Below, piece after piece: positions 20,823 to 27,084 of a DNA stretch of 64,000 nt. This DNA is from Cytophagaceae bacterium (lineage in GTDB: Bacteria > Bacteroidota > Bacteroidia > Cytophagales > Flexibacteraceae), in contig JAIXYP010000025.1 of NCBI GenBank assembly GCA_027490155.1, forward strand, positions 1-64,000, written 5' to 3'. Within the stretch, counting starts at the first letter, position 1; every line of letters starts with the position of its first letter. Under the pieces are notes generated by a model, which saw only the letters and a program-made list of their open reading frames with translations, was not told where the DNA came from and made no database searches. The position numbers were made by a program, and so were the translations under genes.

Positions 20823-21308
20823 ATGCCCCCCATGCCCCTCTTCGTCGATACCAGCATCTTGATCCATGACTTTATGCACCGCCAGCCCGATGTAGCCGCA
20901 GTCCGGAACGTTGTGCCTGCCCATGCCGAGGCCTTGGCACACTACCGCGCAATGGTGCACCACAAGCTCATGGGCTTGGCCCAGGCGGGGGAAACGGTCC
21001 ATACGACAAGTGCGGTGCTATGGCGAATGGCGGCCCTACTTACGGAGTGGTTTATTCCGCCCCAAATGGCCCGGATCGAGTTGCAGTATCTGCTGTCCAA
21101 CTACGTGGTGCACGAGGTTGGCAAACAACATCTGGAAGAAACCATAAGCACCATGGGCAAGGCCCCAACCCAAAGCATCGACGAGATGGGCTGGCAATTG
21201 CTCGGGAAACACGCAGGCATCAATACCCTACTGACATGCCAACCCCTAGAGGCCGACAGCTGGCTAGGATGGCAGATTTTAAAGCCCGAAGAGGTGGTGC
21301 TCGCTTAG
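20823..21308 (+). CDS. PIN-like domain protein
   Basis: The 161-residue protein starts 'LFVDTSILIHDF', which fits the first strand and acidic residue (D9) of a PIN nuclease fold. It ends with 'HAGINTLLTCQP' and 'GWQILKPEEVVLA', which fit the usual PIN C-terminus (lLTnD..F ... i.kPeeF). The central Glu expected after the 'TS' motif is not evident ('TTSAVLWRM'), so the active site may be incomplete. No antitoxin gene is adjacent. It could be an orphan VapC-like protein or an unrelated fold. The start could also be the ATG 9 bp downstream. Confidence 0.55.
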   Translation: MPPMPLFVDTSILIHDFMHRQPDVAAVRNVVPAHAEALAHYRAMVHHKLMGLAQAGETVHTTSAVLWRMAALLTEWFIPPQMARIELQYLLSNYVVHEVGKQHLEETISTMGKAPTQSIDEMGWQLLGKHAGINTLLTCQPLEADSWLGWQILKPEEVVLA

Positions 21309-21793: not shown

Positions 21794-24040
21794 ATGACAC
21801 ACGAAAATATCATCTTATTGTTGGAAGAAGCGGCAGCCTTTGCAGGCCATAGTTTCAACCGCTATGCGCTCAACAACGCCATTAACCTGCCCCCCAGCTA
21901 TGGGCCTGACGAGCTAGAAGAGGTCATCAGCTACCTAGGCAACATGGCCTACAAAGCCAGAATGACCCAGGTATCGAAGGCACTAACGGTGTCTGACATT
22001 CGGCTCTCGATGACGAGCCAAGAGCAGCACCTACTGGTTTTCCTGAAGCCCACCAGCGGATCCGATAGCCTACCCCACCCTTATTGGCTAAGCCCGGCAC
22101 AGACTGTAGCACAGAAGGACAACCTCCTGATGGGTCGCCCTGTCAACCAGCCAAACGCAGCCTGGCGGGTAATCAACGCAGATGAGCTTTTCGCTTGGGG
22201 GGACGAAATGCCACCGCGCATTGCGGGCAAAGTGCCTGCTTTGTTCTACTATCCACTGACGGACATCACGAGCGAACATCAGCATAACCCTGCGCCACTT
22301 GGTGCCGAGCAGCACGCCAACACGGGGGACCTTAGCCAAGCGGATGGACACCATGCACATGGCCACGATGCACACAAACATCTACACCCCTTCGCTCGGC
22401 TGATGATGTTGTTCAAGCCAGATCGGAAGGATATCTGGTTTATCTACGTATTCGCAATTTCGGTTGCGCTCATCAACCTGACTCTGCCGCTTGGCACGCA
22501 AGCCATCATCGGCCTAATTTCGGGTGGGATGGTGTTTAACTCAGTGATCATCCTGATCAGCATGGTAGTGATGGGTGTCGTCGTAGGAGGCGGCCTCCAG
22601 ATCATGCAGCTTTCTATAGTAGAGATTTTGCAACGGCGGGTATTTGCCCGGGCATCGTTCGAGTTTGCGTACCGCGTGCCTAGGTTCACTCTTGCAGGGC
22701 TTGGCAATAGCTATGCCCCCGAGCAGATGAATCGGTTTTTCGAGGTCCTCACGATCCAGAAGGCTATCCCGAAGTTACTAATCGATCTGACGGCGGCTTT
22801 GCTACAAGTTGTGTTTGGCCTCTTGCTGCTTGGGTTTTACCACCCCTTCTTTGTGATCTTTGGCGTGTTTTTGCTTTCGATGTTGTTGCTGTTTTTGATT
22901 TACTACGCTCCTAAAGGGCTTAATTCTAGCATCCAGGAAAGCAAATACAAATACAAGGTCATCGCTTGGTTTCAGGATATGGCCCGGGCCCTGATACCCT
23001 TCAAGATGACGGGAAACAGCAACCTATCAGTCAGCAAAACGGACGAGTACGTCAACCAATATCTTTATTATCGTAAAAAACACTTCGGCCTGCTGATCAC
23101 CCAATACGGTGGTATCCTGATCTTTAAGGCCAGTGTCACCGCTGGTCTGCTGATCATCGGGACTTATCTGGTTGTGGATCGGCAAATCACCCTAGGGCAG
23201 TTTGTCGCCTCCGAGATCGTGATCATTACCGTCCTTAGTGCGGTCGAAAAAATCATCCTGACCCTAGAAGTTGTCTACGATGCGCTCACAGCAGTGGACA
23301 AACTAGGCCATATTACGGACCTGCCGCTAGAGCATAACGAAGGCATCAACCTGCCATCTACCTGCCCAGACAAAGGCACTTACCCATTGCTTGAGGTCAA
23401 GGACCTGAGCTTCAAATACGGTGACTACCATGTACTGCACAGCATCAACTTCAGGCTGATGCCCGGGCAGCACCTAAGCATAGCAGGCGGGAACGGCAGT
23501 GGCAAACACACCTTGGTCAAGATCATCTTGGGCCTATACCCCGACTATAAAGGCGAAGTCGTGATGAACAGGGTCAGCCTTCGGGATGCGAACCTGTCTA
23601 GCCTCCGGAATCAGATTGGTGAAAATGCCATCAACTGCGAGTTTTTTGAGGGTACCATCTACGACAACATCGCCATGGGACGCCCCGGTATTGTGGCCTA
23701 TCGGGTTAGCGAGGTGCTAGAAGACCTTGGCATAGCCTCTGTCATCAATCAATTGCCGAACGGCCTCTATACCAACCTCTCGATCGGCACACCTGTCCTG
23801 AACGGCACTGCCCTTTACTGCCTTACCTTGGCCCGCACCTTGGTCAACCACCCTAAGCTTGTGATCATTGATGACGAACTCCAGAAACTAAACCAAGCCG
23901 ACAAACTCCGGATCTTGAGCTATTTGCAGAACCCCAAACATGACTGGGCTGTGATCTACCTCAGCAACGACCCACTCATTCAGGCCGCCTGTAGCCAAGT
24001 TATTCACCTCCAGAAAGGCCGGGTTGACCTTGTAACCTAG
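21794..24040 (+). CDS. Type I secretion-like ABC transporter with degenerate ATPase domain
   Basis: The 748-residue protein has an N-terminal domain of unknown type (1-160), a His-rich linker (ten His within 162-198), a six-segment transmembrane domain (about 212-500) and an ABC domain (about 530-748). Compared with family consensus the ABC domain is degenerate. Walker A has K571 but H572 in place of Ser/Thr. The Q-loop Gln is I613. The signature is LNGTA (669-673) instead of LSGGQ. Walker B has D694 in place of the catalytic Glu. The H-loop His is N725. The fold seems intact but ATP hydrolysis is doubtful. It is followed by an HlyD adaptor and TolC, so it would be the inner-membrane part of a tripartite exporter. 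Confidence 0.85.
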   Translation: MTHENIILLLEEAAAFAGHSFNRYALNNAINLPPSYGPDELEEVISYLGNMAYKARMTQVSKALTVSDIRLSMTSQEQHLLVFLKPTSGSDSLPHPYWLSPAQTVAQKDNLLMGRPVNQPNAAWRVINADELFAWGDEMPPRIAGKVPALFYYPLTDITSEHQHNPAPLGAEQHANTGDLSQADGHHAHGHDAHKHLHPFARLMMLFKPDRKDIWFIYVFAISVALINLTLPLGTQAIIGLISGGMVFNSVIILISMVVMGVVVGGGLQIMQLSIVEILQRRVFARASFEFAYRVPRFTLAGLGNSYAPEQMNRFFEVLTIQKAIPKLLIDLTAALLQVVFGLLLLGFYHPFFVIFGVFLLSMLLLFLIYYAPKGLNSSIQESKYKYKVIAWFQDMARALIPFKMTGNSNLSVSKTDEYVNQYLYYRKKHFGLLITQYGGILIFKASVTAGLLIIGTYLVVDRQITLGQFVASEIVIITVLSAVEKIILTLEVVYDALTAVDKLGHITDLPLEHNEGINLPSTCPDKGTYPLLEVKDLSFKYGDYHVLHSINFRLMPGQHLSIAGGNGSGKHTLVKIILGLYPDYKGEVVMNRVSLRDANLSSLRNQIGENAINCEFFEGTIYDNIAMGRPGIVAYRVSEVLEDLGIASVINQLPNGLYTNLSIGTPVLNGTALYCLTLARTLVNHPKLVIIDDELQKLNQADKLRILSYLQNPKHDWAVIYLSNDPLIQAACSQVIHLQKGRVDLVT

Positions 24041-24193
24041 TGCCTCGCCAAACCCCAACTGCGCCACGAGGACTAAGTTAACGCCCCTCCGTGCCAGACC
24101 AAACCAAACCCTAAACCCACCCTGAGCGCTTCCATCCAGCTCACCCTGTAACGGATCCGCCTAGGCCCAACGATACTAGCAAGCCCACTCGCT

Positions 24194-25576
24194 ATGCTGC
24201 ATATATCAGACCCTCAACCAGGGCACCAACAAGAACTAGATACCGAACACCATGCGCTTCATACGCTCGGGACGCTGCCTACACCCCGTACGGCACGCAT
24301 TCTCAGGCTCTGGATCTATGTCATCTTCGGCATTATGTTCATCGCCTTGTTCTTGCCATGGCAGCAGAACATCACGGGCTATGGCAAAGTCACTGCCCTC
24401 AACCCCGCCGATCGCCCCCAAACCATCCAGTCCGTCATCCCGGGCCGGATTGCCAAGTGGTTTGTGCAGGAAGGTCAATTCGTGAAGGCAGGCGATACCA
24501 TCTTAGTCCTGTCCGAGCTCAAGGATGACTATTTTGACCCCGAATACCTCAAAAGACTTGGAGAACAAAAGGCAGCCAAGGAGCAGAGCATCGCCGCCAC
24601 TGAGCGCCAGATTGACGCTGCTGCGCGCCAGCTCACAGCCCTCAACAATGCCCTAACCTATAGCCTCCAGAAAGCGCGGAACAAGGTGCGGCAGGGAAGG
24701 CTCAAGGTCTTGGTTGATAGCACCGACTATCGTGCTTATGTCATCGACTACCAGATTGCAGACACCCAACTAGACCGCTACCAAAAGCTATATGACGATA
24801 AGGGTCTAATCTCCCTCACCGACCTCGAAAAGCGTAAACTCAAAGTCCAAGAGTCTTACGCCAAGATGGTCTCGAGCCAGAACAAGTTCTTCGTATCTAA
24901 AAACGAGCTCTTAAATGCCCTTATTGAACTTAGCTCACTCAATGCCGAATATGCCGACAAAATCAGCAAAACAGAAGGCGAGCGGGCAGCCAAGCAGTCT
25001 TACCTCGCTGAGGCCCAAAGTGAGTACAGCAAACTCCGGAACAAGATTACCAATGTCAATATCCGGACTGATAACTATGCCGTATTGGCCCCTCAAGATG
25101 CGTTCATCGTGCGGGCTGCGAAAACGGGTATCGGCGAAAACGTCAAAGAAGGCGACCCCTTGGTGACCATCCAGCCAGACCTACCTAGCCTAGCTGCTGA
25201 GGTCTATGTCCGCGCGATGGATGTACCCTTGATCCAGAAGGGCCGCACCGTCCGGATCGAGTTTGATGGCTGGCCTGCACTCCAGTTCAGCGGTTGGCCA
25301 AGTGTGGCTGTCGGTACGTTCAAAGGCGAAGTCTATAGTGTGGACCAGACCAATATGGCCGACGGTACGTTCCGTGTGCTGGTCAAACCCGTACATGAGG
25401 ACCGTGATTGGCCTACCCAGCTACGGCTCGGTAGTGGGGTTTATGGCTGGGTTATGCTAGATGATGTACCTGTTTGGTACGAAATCTGGCGGCAACTCAA
25501 CGGATTCCCACCTAGCCTAAAAGGCGAGCCAGAGGATGACAAAACAAAAGCGAAAAAGGACGCTGCCAAAAAATGA
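24194..25576 (+). CDS. HlyD-family periplasmic adaptor
   Basis: This 460-residue membrane-fusion protein has one N-terminal membrane segment (38-56), a lipoyl-like half motif after it ('GYGKVTALNPADRPQTI', 'GRIAKWFVQEGQFVKAGD'), a long charged coiled coil (about 115-290), then the second half ('YAVLAPQDAFIVRAAKTGIG') and a beta-barrel region. It should bridge the ABC protein upstream and TolC downstream. The C-terminus is a Lys/Asp-rich tail. Its stop overlaps the TolC start (ATGA), so the two are translationally coupled. Confidence 0.9.
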   Translation: MLHISDPQPGHQQELDTEHHALHTLGTLPTPRTARILRLWIYVIFGIMFIALFLPWQQNITGYGKVTALNPADRPQTIQSVIPGRIAKWFVQEGQFVKAGDTILVLSELKDDYFDPEYLKRLGEQKAAKEQSIAATERQIDAAARQLTALNNALTYSLQKARNKVRQGRLKVLVDSTDYRAYVIDYQIADTQLDRYQKLYDDKGLISLTDLEKRKLKVQESYAKMVSSQNKFFVSKNELLNALIELSSLNAEYADKISKTEGERAAKQSYLAEAQSEYSKLRNKITNVNIRTDNYAVLAPQDAFIVRAAKTGIGENVKEGDPLVTIQPDLPSLAAEVYVRAMDVPLIQKGRTVRIEFDGWPALQFSGWPSVAVGTFKGEVYSVDQTNMADGTFRVLVKPVHEDRDWPTQLRLGSGVYGWVMLDDVPVWYEIWRQLNGFPPSLKGEPEDDKTKAKKDAAKK

Positions 25577-27084
25577 TGAAGTTGCCACTACATCTTGGTC
25601 TGCGTGCCTGCCTATCTTTAATGCTGATGGTCTTGTTGGCTACTGGCTTGTCATTAGCCCAACCACCGACCCCATCTAAACCGCAACCACTGGTCAAAAC
25701 CAGCTCAGCGGTGACCATTGCTGCCAGTCCCACTGTTGATACTGCCAAGATCCTTGGTCTTAATGATGCCTATCTACTGATTCAGGCCTATCATCCACTG
25801 ATCAGGCAAGCTGTTTTGCTGTCCGAGGCGGCGCAACAGGACCTACGGATGGCCAAAGGTGGATTTGACCCCAAGGCCACTGTTGATTATGCCCAGAAGT
25901 TCTATAACAACAAGGACTACTACACCCTGCTTGATGCCTACGTCAAGGTCCCTACCTGGATTGGCCTTGATGTCGTTGGGGGGTATACCAAAAACACAGG
26001 TCTTGACCTTAACTCGACCGAAAACACGGCGGATGGCAAAGGATTGTATTACATTGGGGCAACGCTACCCATCGGTGCAGGCCTGTTTATAGACCAGCGT
26101 CGGGCGGTGTTGAAGCAGGCACAAATAGGCATCACCATGGCTGAGGCCGAACGTGTCAAGGCCATAAACAAAATCGTCCTCCAGATCGCGAAAGACTATT
26201 GGGCTTGGTATGAAGCTTGGCAAACCGTCCAGAACACAGCCTTTGGCTACCAGCTTGCGCTCGAGCGGTTCGAGGCCGTCAAACAGCGGGTAGAAGGCGG
26301 AGATATGGCTCGTATTGACTCTGTCGAGGCCCGCATCACGGTGCAGGACCGTGCCATTAGCCTCCAGACTGCTAGGCTTGACCTGCAACAAGCACGGCTA
26401 GCTTTTGAGGTCCACCTCTGGGCCGATGACAACCAACCCCGCGAGCTTATGCCGAATGTGGTCCCTGCCATGCCTGCCCTGGGTCAGGAAAGGGCCATGT
26501 TACCAACCGACCAGCTGCTGGACATGGCCAACACCCGCCACCCTGAGCTCATCAAGCTACAGACCAAGCTAGACCAGCTTGAGATTGACCGCCGCCTCAG
26601 TGTCGAAAACCTGAAGCCAACCATCAACCTCAAGTACAATTACCTCAGTGGTAAGGACGGCATCAGCAACGACTTTTCGTCCAACTTCGCCCAGCATAAC
26701 TACCAGTTTGGTGTGCAGGCCTTTATGCCTCTGTTCCTGCGCAAGGAGCGTGGCAAATTGGGTCTCACCAAGGTCAAGTTGTCGCAAGGCCAGCTTGAGC
26801 TCCAGCAACAACGCCGCAACATCCAGAACGAAATCAAATCTGCCGCTGCCGAGATGACCACCATGTCCGGCCTACTAGTTAACCAGCAGACCATGGTCCA
26901 GAACTACCAAACGCTAAGAGATGCCGAGGTTGAAAAATTCATCAACGGCGAAAGTAGCCTCTTCTTGGTCAACAGCCGTGAGTCCAAACTCATCGAGGGG
27001 CGCATCAAACTAGCGAGCCTGCAAGCCAAGTACCAAAAGGCACAGGCTTACCTACGCTGGGCAGCTGGGTTGGGGTTGGAGTAG
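25573..27084 (+). CDS. TolC-family outer-membrane efflux protein
   Basis: The 503-residue protein has an N-terminal signal sequence followed by a Pro-rich stretch. Two related helical halves each carry amphipathic coiled-coil segments, e.g. 'AINKIVLQIAKDYWAWYEAW' and 'NVEKFINGESSLFLVNSRE'-like ends typical of TolC proteins. It is the outer-membrane channel of the tripartite exporter. It starts 4 bp inside the end of the HlyD gene and ends 23 bp from a convergent gene. Confidence 0.9.
   Translation: MMKLPLHLGLRACLSLMLMVLLATGLSLAQPPTPSKPQPLVKTSSAVTIAASPTVDTAKILGLNDAYLLIQAYHPLIRQAVLLSEAAQQDLRMAKGGFDPKATVDYAQKFYNNKDYYTLLDAYVKVPTWIGLDVVGGYTKNTGLDLNSTENTADGKGLYYIGATLPIGAGLFIDQRRAVLKQAQIGITMAEAERVKAINKIVLQIAKDYWAWYEAWQTVQNTAFGYQLALERFEAVKQRVEGGDMARIDSVEARITVQDRAISLQTARLDLQQARLAFEVHLWADDNQPRELMPNVVPAMPALGQERAMLPTDQLLDMANTRHPELIKLQTKLDQLEIDRRLSVENLKPTINLKYNYLSGKDGISNDFSSNFAQHNYQFGVQAFMPLFLRKERGKLGLTKVKLSQGQLELQQQRRNIQNEIKSAAAEMTTMSGLLVNQQTMVQNYQTLRDAEVEKFINGESSLFLVNSRESKLIEGRIKLASLQAKYQKAQAYLRWAAGLGLE

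Follow-up and report, generated by a model that had tools for sequence, protein, structure and literature searches.

A 64,000-nucleotide stretch of DNA from a Cytophagaceae bacterium (positions 1 to 64,000 of contig JAIXYP010000025.1, assembly GCA_027490155.1; hereafter the window) carries, at positions 21794-27084 of its forward strand, three open reading frames (ORFs) in an operon arrangement, all of them open. They encode an ABC (ATP-binding cassette)-type protein of 748 amino acids (aa; 21794-24040), a HlyD-type periplasmic adaptor of 460 aa (24194-25576) and a TolC-type outer membrane channel of 503 aa (25573-27084). Throughout the main group of the family to which the ABC-type protein belongs, sequence comparison shows that the catalytic residues of the nucleotide-binding domain (NBD) are gone, while the transmembrane domain (TMD) is well conserved and the operon is retained, and in one clade the NBD is missing altogether. 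We consider it probable that these proteins represent an ABC-fold exporter that has turned into an ion-gradient-driven pump, similar to SbmA, working in a HlyD-TolC conduit, and that the leftover NBD is structural or regulatory. The energy source we infer from the NBD-free proteins that are conserved in the same operon. Textbooks keep ATP-driven ABC transporters apart from gradient-driven carriers, and SbmA forms a bridge between the two.

The NBD of the window protein spans residues 525-748 (23366..24037; PF00005 at residues 548-694, E 1.1e-16). Its Walker A motif, GGNGSGKHT (23486..23512), retains Lys571 and has His572 at the Ser/Thr position; the Q-loop Gln is Ile613, the signature LSGGQ reads LNGTA (residues 669-673, 23798..23812), the Walker B motif LVIIDD (23858..23875) keeps Asp693 and carries Asp694 at the position of the catalytic Glu, and the switch (H-loop) His is Asn725 (23966..23968). 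Read by the generally known roles of the individual ABC motifs and the logic of composite sites, this is, by sequence, not a catalytically competent NBD. The residues agree exactly with those listed in a preliminary description of the window, which had also noted that HlyD and TolC follow and look normal, as borne out by the Pfam families of both proteins: PF13437 for the adaptor (1.2e-13, in addition to TIGR01843 at 2.5e-23, under the cut-off of that model) and the OEP/TolC family for the channel (PF02321, 2.3e-35).

As an in-genome control we read, of the 37 PF00005 matches that the source genome has besides the window protein, the 28 with the best scores, the remaining nine (on eight stretches) being covered by pattern search only. 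Walker A Ser/Thr and the switch His are present in all 28 domains, the Q-loop Gln in 24, SxG in 27 (SGG in 22) and Asp-Glu in 27, and each of the 28 keeps at least three of the features Gln, SxG, Glu and His; the nine weaker matches show Asp-Glu in all seven stretches with a visible Walker B. Single departures from the motifs do happen in this genome, and the full combination found in the window protein occurs in no other domain read. Examples of such departures are an ordinary half-transporter (L004, G000:C43) with Walker B Asp-Asp for Asp-Glu and otherwise canonical motifs, and two small stand-alone ABC ATPases (L299, G000:C36, 233 aa; L300, G000:C41, 218 aa) which keep Asp-Glu and lack a His where the switch residue would be expected.

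Comparison with relatives indicates that the motif losses are old and family-wide, and the family extends widely through the Bacteroidota. An orthologue was found in 47 of 59 related genomes at E below 1e-56, other ABC exporters being set apart at E above 1e-28. At E up to 1e-60 the family is present in 210 of 243 genomes at order level and in 99 of 392 at phylum level, and a scan of named genomes gave at least 585 relatives, 80 of which include Pontibacter, Hymenobacter, Polaribacter, Tamlana, Olleya, Flavobacterium, Salegentibacter, Saprospiraceae and two Gemmatimonadota metagenome-assembled genomes (MAGs). Motifs were counted in a main group of 134 distinct NBD-bearing cores including that of the window, with seven NBD-less, 20 deep and two Gemmatimonadota rows counted apart, the locus L009, which repeats the window, removed, and the other-class rows L221, L224, L225 and L226 counted with the degenerate group. 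The Q-loop Gln is canonical in three members of the main group, the signature Ser-Gly in eight, the signature Gln (position 673) in none, the catalytic Glu in ten and the switch His in three; taking Q-loop Gln, signature Ser-Gly, Glu and His together, 110 members keep none of the four, 24 keep one and no member keeps more. The Walker B Asp is present in 35 members, and the Walker A Ser/Thr is substituted in 42. Position 726, directly after the lost switch His, is Asp in 97 of the 134, often as S-N-D-P, which is a non-random replacement. A further member, L296, has a degenerate NBD of the usual kind.

These counts bear on several points of the preliminary description. It had held that changes at so many motifs are unlikely to be sequencing errors, and indeed the protein on a same-genus contig (G001) is 99% identical and has the same motifs, while losses of the same class are found in all 134 members of the main group. 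Its proposal to align homologues gave sister species without canonical motifs, which speaks against a recent pseudogene. Of its suggestion that the protein binds ATP and does not hydrolyse it, the second half has become strongly supported by sequence for the family as a whole; simple ATP binding may survive in the NBD-bearing members, because the Walker A Lys is kept in 128 of the 134 and an A-loop Tyr or Phe in 115.

Some members depart from this pattern. For three loci (L051 in genome G002, L214 and L297) the alignments show no Walker A motif, which takes NBD decay one step further, and the two Gemmatimonadota loci (L126 and L135) have lost the Walker A Lys and kept the switch His, their position in these MAGs reflecting either horizontal transfer or a binning error.

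The 20 deep rows, a selection of the other-class places from the phylum search, have a complete Walker A in all 20, the catalytic Glu in 19, the switch His in 15, an S-x-G-Q signature in three and the Q-loop Gln in none; by these residues the deep relatives are probably active or nearly so. If the canonical motifs are ancestral, the Q-loop and the signature would have changed first and Glu and His afterwards, an order that depends on a weak rooting, since the outgroup branches are very long and leave the root of the tree uncertain. Living genomes thus appear to hold a graded series from probably active through degenerate to NBD-free proteins.

Lone-TMD frames of about 330-390 aa, ending just past transmembrane helix 6 (TM6), were found in 52 genomes: four from the related-genome search (including G026), three from the class-level search and 48 among the low-scoring genomes of the order, with three overlapping. 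The 48 come from 64 low-scoring genomes that were searched again, out of the 210 positives, and 12 of the 49 places there were called by frame length alone, a call to be taken with caution: at locus L293 (G491) the TMD and the NBD occupy two frames that overlap, owing to a frameshift or to splitting of the gene, and short frames may thus also come from split genes. At seven loci the frame ends shortly after the residues VTDL, at the start of what would be the linker to the NBD. At every one of the 41 NBD-less loci read, HlyD is the next gene on the same strand (gap -8 to 118 bases at 30 loci), and TolC follows at all 14 loci with enough flanking sequence. No NBD match lies within 1.5 kb of any of 30 NBD-less loci, and a generic ABC ATPase ORF was seen 4.3 kb downstream at one (L057) of the seven loci with wider flanks. 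When seven NBD-less genomes were searched with the window NBD, no stand-alone NBD of the family emerged, and the best match had 35% identity.

The NBD-less members are scattered over families f10, f12, f17 and f23, and independent losses were suspected from this scatter. In trees of the TMD without the coupling region, made by a quick method with first seven and then 41 distinct NBD-less rows, they form one clade nested among NBD-bearing rows in both cases (SH-aLRT 99 and 98, respectively), which suggests a single deletion of the NBD that persisted and spread over the four families. Genome G497 has three family operons with HlyD and TolC, two of them NBD-less (L279 and L280) and one degenerate (L281); the NBD-bearing paralogues that occur beside NBD-less ones, L281 in this genome and L283 in G457, are degenerate too.

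The TMD itself looks like that of an exporter. In a structural model of the whole window protein (pLDDT 85.3), residues 195-520 (22376..23353; pLDDT 85) form six long helices, at 199-243, 249-297, 308-349, 351-398, 411-461 and 467-508, in a predicted type IV ABC exporter fold. A fold search gave PCAT1 (9azl, E 3.2e-27) and HlyB (8dck, E 5.2e-27), and structural alignment gave HlyB chain 8dck_A (Z 26.5, 3.3 Å over 581 residues) together with chains of MsbA, TAP and PCAT1 at Z 26-27.5. SbmA is absent among the 50 structural-alignment matches listed, which is uninformative as to a lack of similarity.

Short helices of the model at residues 300-303 and 400-405 lie where we would expect coupling helices 1 and 2, the latter, between TM4 and TM5, being the probable coupling helix 2 with Phe403 and Lys404 (22991..23008). 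This second region has changed in the NBD-less clade. Mean identity over columns 398-411 is 0.297 in the NBD-less rows (n=41) versus 0.472 in the NBD-bearing rows, while the rest of the TMD shows 0.628 versus 0.527, and when 304 windows of fourteen columns are compared along the TMD, the eight whose conservation drops most all start at 398-405. Individual residues follow the same trend: Arg398 and Phe403 are each kept in 10 of the 41 NBD-less rows, compared to 127 and 132 of 134 NBD-bearing ones, Gly407 in five versus 112, and Lys404 in one versus 121. Sequence conservation thus indicates that part of the coupling machinery, the helix-2 region, has decayed along with the NBD. The window protein, with its degenerate NBD, has not lost its coupling helices and keeps IPFK at 401-404.

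Ionisable residues of the TMD have been maintained. Glu277, Glu310, His350, Glu382, Glu474, Lys486, Asp496 and Lys503 are found in all 41 NBD-less rows, and position 485 is Glu in 28 and Asp in 12 of them. In TM6 of the NBD-bearing rows Glu474 is present in 132, Glu485 in 133 and Lys486 in 133 of 134 (23213..23251 in the window); PCAT1 has Asn at the position aligned with Glu474. More generally, many polar or charged positions rank among the most conserved of the TMD.

Selection acts on both domains. Between the window protein and L010 the ratio of nonsynonymous to synonymous substitution rates (dN/dS) is 0.008 for the TMD and 0.028 for the NBD, the NBD ratio not being computable in six of the 11 NBD-bearing pairs tried, and both TMD and NBD are under purifying selection. 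Mean pairwise identity in the family is 0.523 for the TMD and 0.342 for the NBD, and the NBD is the better conserved domain in just one of 8,771 pairs, a comparison that omits L121, L010, L077, L026, L051 and all pairs with a TMD identity of 0.9 or more and includes the two Gemmatimonadota rows. In the 15 deep rows that have both Glu and His the values are 0.489 for the TMD versus 0.449 for the NBD, and the NBD comes out ahead in 38.5% of the 104 pairs. HlyD, at 42-58% identity across 20 neighbourhoods (the same-genus L061 apart), is as conserved as the TMD.

Since the NBD-free members are conserved and stay in the operon, the core function should not need ATP hydrolysis by the TMD protein, and since NBD-less operons are widespread, another energy source, one of three options raised in the preliminary description, has become the leading one, as far as can be deduced from sequence. 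We envisage that a dimer of the TMD would operate by alternating access, with an ion gradient as its energy source, and would pass its substrate to HlyD-TolC. Glu474 and the pair Glu485-Lys486 in TM6 would be the first candidates for ion coupling; the other near-invariant ionisable residues Glu277, Glu382 and His350 lie perhaps outside the membrane core. Where a degenerate NBD remains, it might serve as a structural or nucleotide-sensing appendage. The substrate could be a small molecule or a lipid, as hinted by a TetR-type gene that some members of the family have next to the operon.

Several observations weigh against such a gradient-driven pump. The change at Lys404 is mostly a mild one, to Arg in 39 of the 41 NBD-less rows, and the coupling-helix-1 region (298-311) shows no loss of conservation in these rows (0.596 versus 0.448). 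The TM6 charges also occur in the deep, probably ATP-using clades (Glu474 in 19 of 20) and hence did not arise with the loss of the NBD, which they predate; no gain of acidic residues was seen at that step, and the charges are compatible with ion coupling and are no proof of it. An unrelated ATPase might act in trans, the searches of NBD-less genomes having been aimed at NBDs of the family. In most lineages, moreover, a catalytically stripped NBD is retained under purifying selection, so that it has some role there, and the binding of ATP might still count. The inner-membrane part could also have a passive or periplasm-only role.

The retained NBD leads to the alternative that the NBDs sense ATP without hydrolysing it and thereby switch or gate the transporter, the substrate moving down its own gradient; gating of the kind known from CFTR and SUR is the general model for this. 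The kept Walker A Lys and A-loop aromatic residue would fit, as would purifying selection on the NBD and its intact fold in the model (Z 27.7 to the ATPase domain of TAP1). With Gln673 in none of the 134 members and a broken signature, however, ATP-sandwich dimers should be weak, the Walker A Ser/Thr is replaced in almost a third of the main group (the 42 members given above), and a whole clade without NBD is left unexplained; we regard nucleotide gating as rather unlikely.

An active partner encoded elsewhere had also been proposed in the preliminary description. The degenerate chain would then pair with a catalytically intact half-transporter that supplies hydrolysis, and heterodimeric exporters with one degenerate site, TmrAB and TM287/288, are indeed on record (PMC8277102). 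The source genome has four ABC frames of half-transporter size (607-627 aa) with largely canonical motifs. But the signature and Glu/His are lost in one and the same chain of the family, so that neither composite site would be canonical even with an intact partner. No second half-transporter of the family lies in the window operon or in the 20 neighbourhoods, the co-resident paralogues L281 and L283 are themselves degenerate, and the decay of the coupling-helix-2 region in NBD-less members likewise disagrees with such a partner. The heterodimer appears quite improbable on these grounds.

It is very unlikely, in our estimate, that the inner-membrane protein is a scaffold which just anchors HlyD-TolC, without transport across the inner membrane and with substrate entering from the periplasm. 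The loss of all energy motifs next to a HlyD as conserved as the TMD would agree with this idea, yet the conserved polar and charged positions of the TMD exceed what an anchor seems to need. A pseudogene or decaying operon, which the several lost motifs and the poorer conservation of the NBD than of the TMD in 8,770 of the 8,771 pairs might suggest, can hardly be entertained given that orthologues of the related-genome search have no internal stops, that dN/dS is far below 1 in the computable pairs and that the family is present across the order, and a recent pseudogene is ruled out by the shared losses and the purifying selection.

Upstream of the TMD the window protein has a soluble N-terminal domain (residues 1-165, 21794..22288; pLDDT 81), which is missing in many members of the family. 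It has no Pfam match, and its two best fold matches are C39 or C39-like domains of ABC exporters with non-significant E values of 0.09 and 0.29; it is possibly, judging from the model, a decayed C39-like domain.

HlyD lies directly downstream in 118 of the 138 loci examined. At 12 of the 138 no HlyD was seen within the stretch examined; two of these, L063 and L070, are far from a contig end, and hence HlyD need not accompany the ABC gene. The TetR-type gene, so labelled from the Pfam scan of a single member (L067) and the clustering of the others, occurs at 53 of the 138 loci, and at 45 of them it directly precedes the operon in the same orientation; this gene family was not found around the window operon (14001-36000). 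Upstream of the window operon there is an ORF of 161 aa (20823-21308), starting MPPMPLFVDTSILIHDF, which is PIN-domain-like by eye and has no Pfam match at 0.001.

We found no description of the family in the open-access literature, preprints and subscription papers lying outside the scope of this search. The two members whose annotation was read, WP_309940528.1 and WP_004920602.1, are annotated as "ABC transporter ATP-binding protein" though their NBDs are degenerate, and names of this ATP-binding kind may mislead for the whole family. If the gradient-driven reading is true, the family is a natural test of whether ion gradients alone drive the membrane domains of ABC exporters, and its NBD-less members offer a clean case for the question of the energy source, as they have no ATP site to dispute.

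Among known systems, the type I secretion and peptidase-containing (PCAT) transporters HlyB, PCAT1 and LssB resemble the window protein in the type IV fold of the TMD, in the NBD behind it and in having HlyD and TolC in the operon, as the window does. The family differs from them in that it lacks functional ATPase motifs, that its N-terminal domain matches no Pfam C39 peptidase and that one clade is free of the NBD. The heterodimers TmrAB, TM287/288 and TAP likewise have non-canonical motifs in one chain, and in such degenerate-site heterodimers the partner restores one canonical site; in the family, by contrast, a single chain has both site halves broken, and no partner was seen next to the operon. 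ABC exporter TMDs without NBD are also represented by truncated MsbA, which is reported to export ethidium and erythromycin on a pH gradient (PMC4979069), and by truncated LmrA, for which gradient-driven transport is reported together with Glu314 of TM6 (PMC6155054). These two (MsbA-MD and LmrA-MD) are engineered truncations, whereas the NBD-less form of the family is natural, conserved and placed in an operon.

The closest parallel is SbmA/BacA (SLiPT). SbmA is described as having an ABC-type TMD that runs on the proton gradient, and is presumed to have originated from a full ABC transporter and to have lost the NBD and the coupling helices (PMC13316013). The NBD-less clade shares with it an ABC-type TMD that seems uncoupled from ATP through loss of the NBD and of coupling-helix sequence; an ABC-type TMD without NBD is found in this clade only, the window protein keeping its degenerate NBD. 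In contrast to SbmA/BacA, the model of the window protein has a soluble N-terminal domain and no TM0 helices, the genes stand in a HlyD-TolC operon, and the decay is incomplete in most members. Neither the window protein nor the three NBD-less members scanned match the Pfam family SbmA_BacA at E up to 1; they match ABC_membrane (PF00664) instead.

While SbmA-type uncoupling as such is known, what would be new is to find it in a tripartite exporter resembling those of type I secretion, with the intermediates preserved. Evolution seems here to repeat the change from ATP to a gradient stepwise, in a large conserved family and in operons with known partners. We see the balance as even for the proposition that an ATP-driven ABC exporter has here become a secondary transporter for a second time, separately from SbmA and within a tripartite HlyD-TolC pump, with all stages surviving: NBDs that are probably active, NBDs that are degenerate, and proteins that lack the NBD and have a decayed coupling helix.

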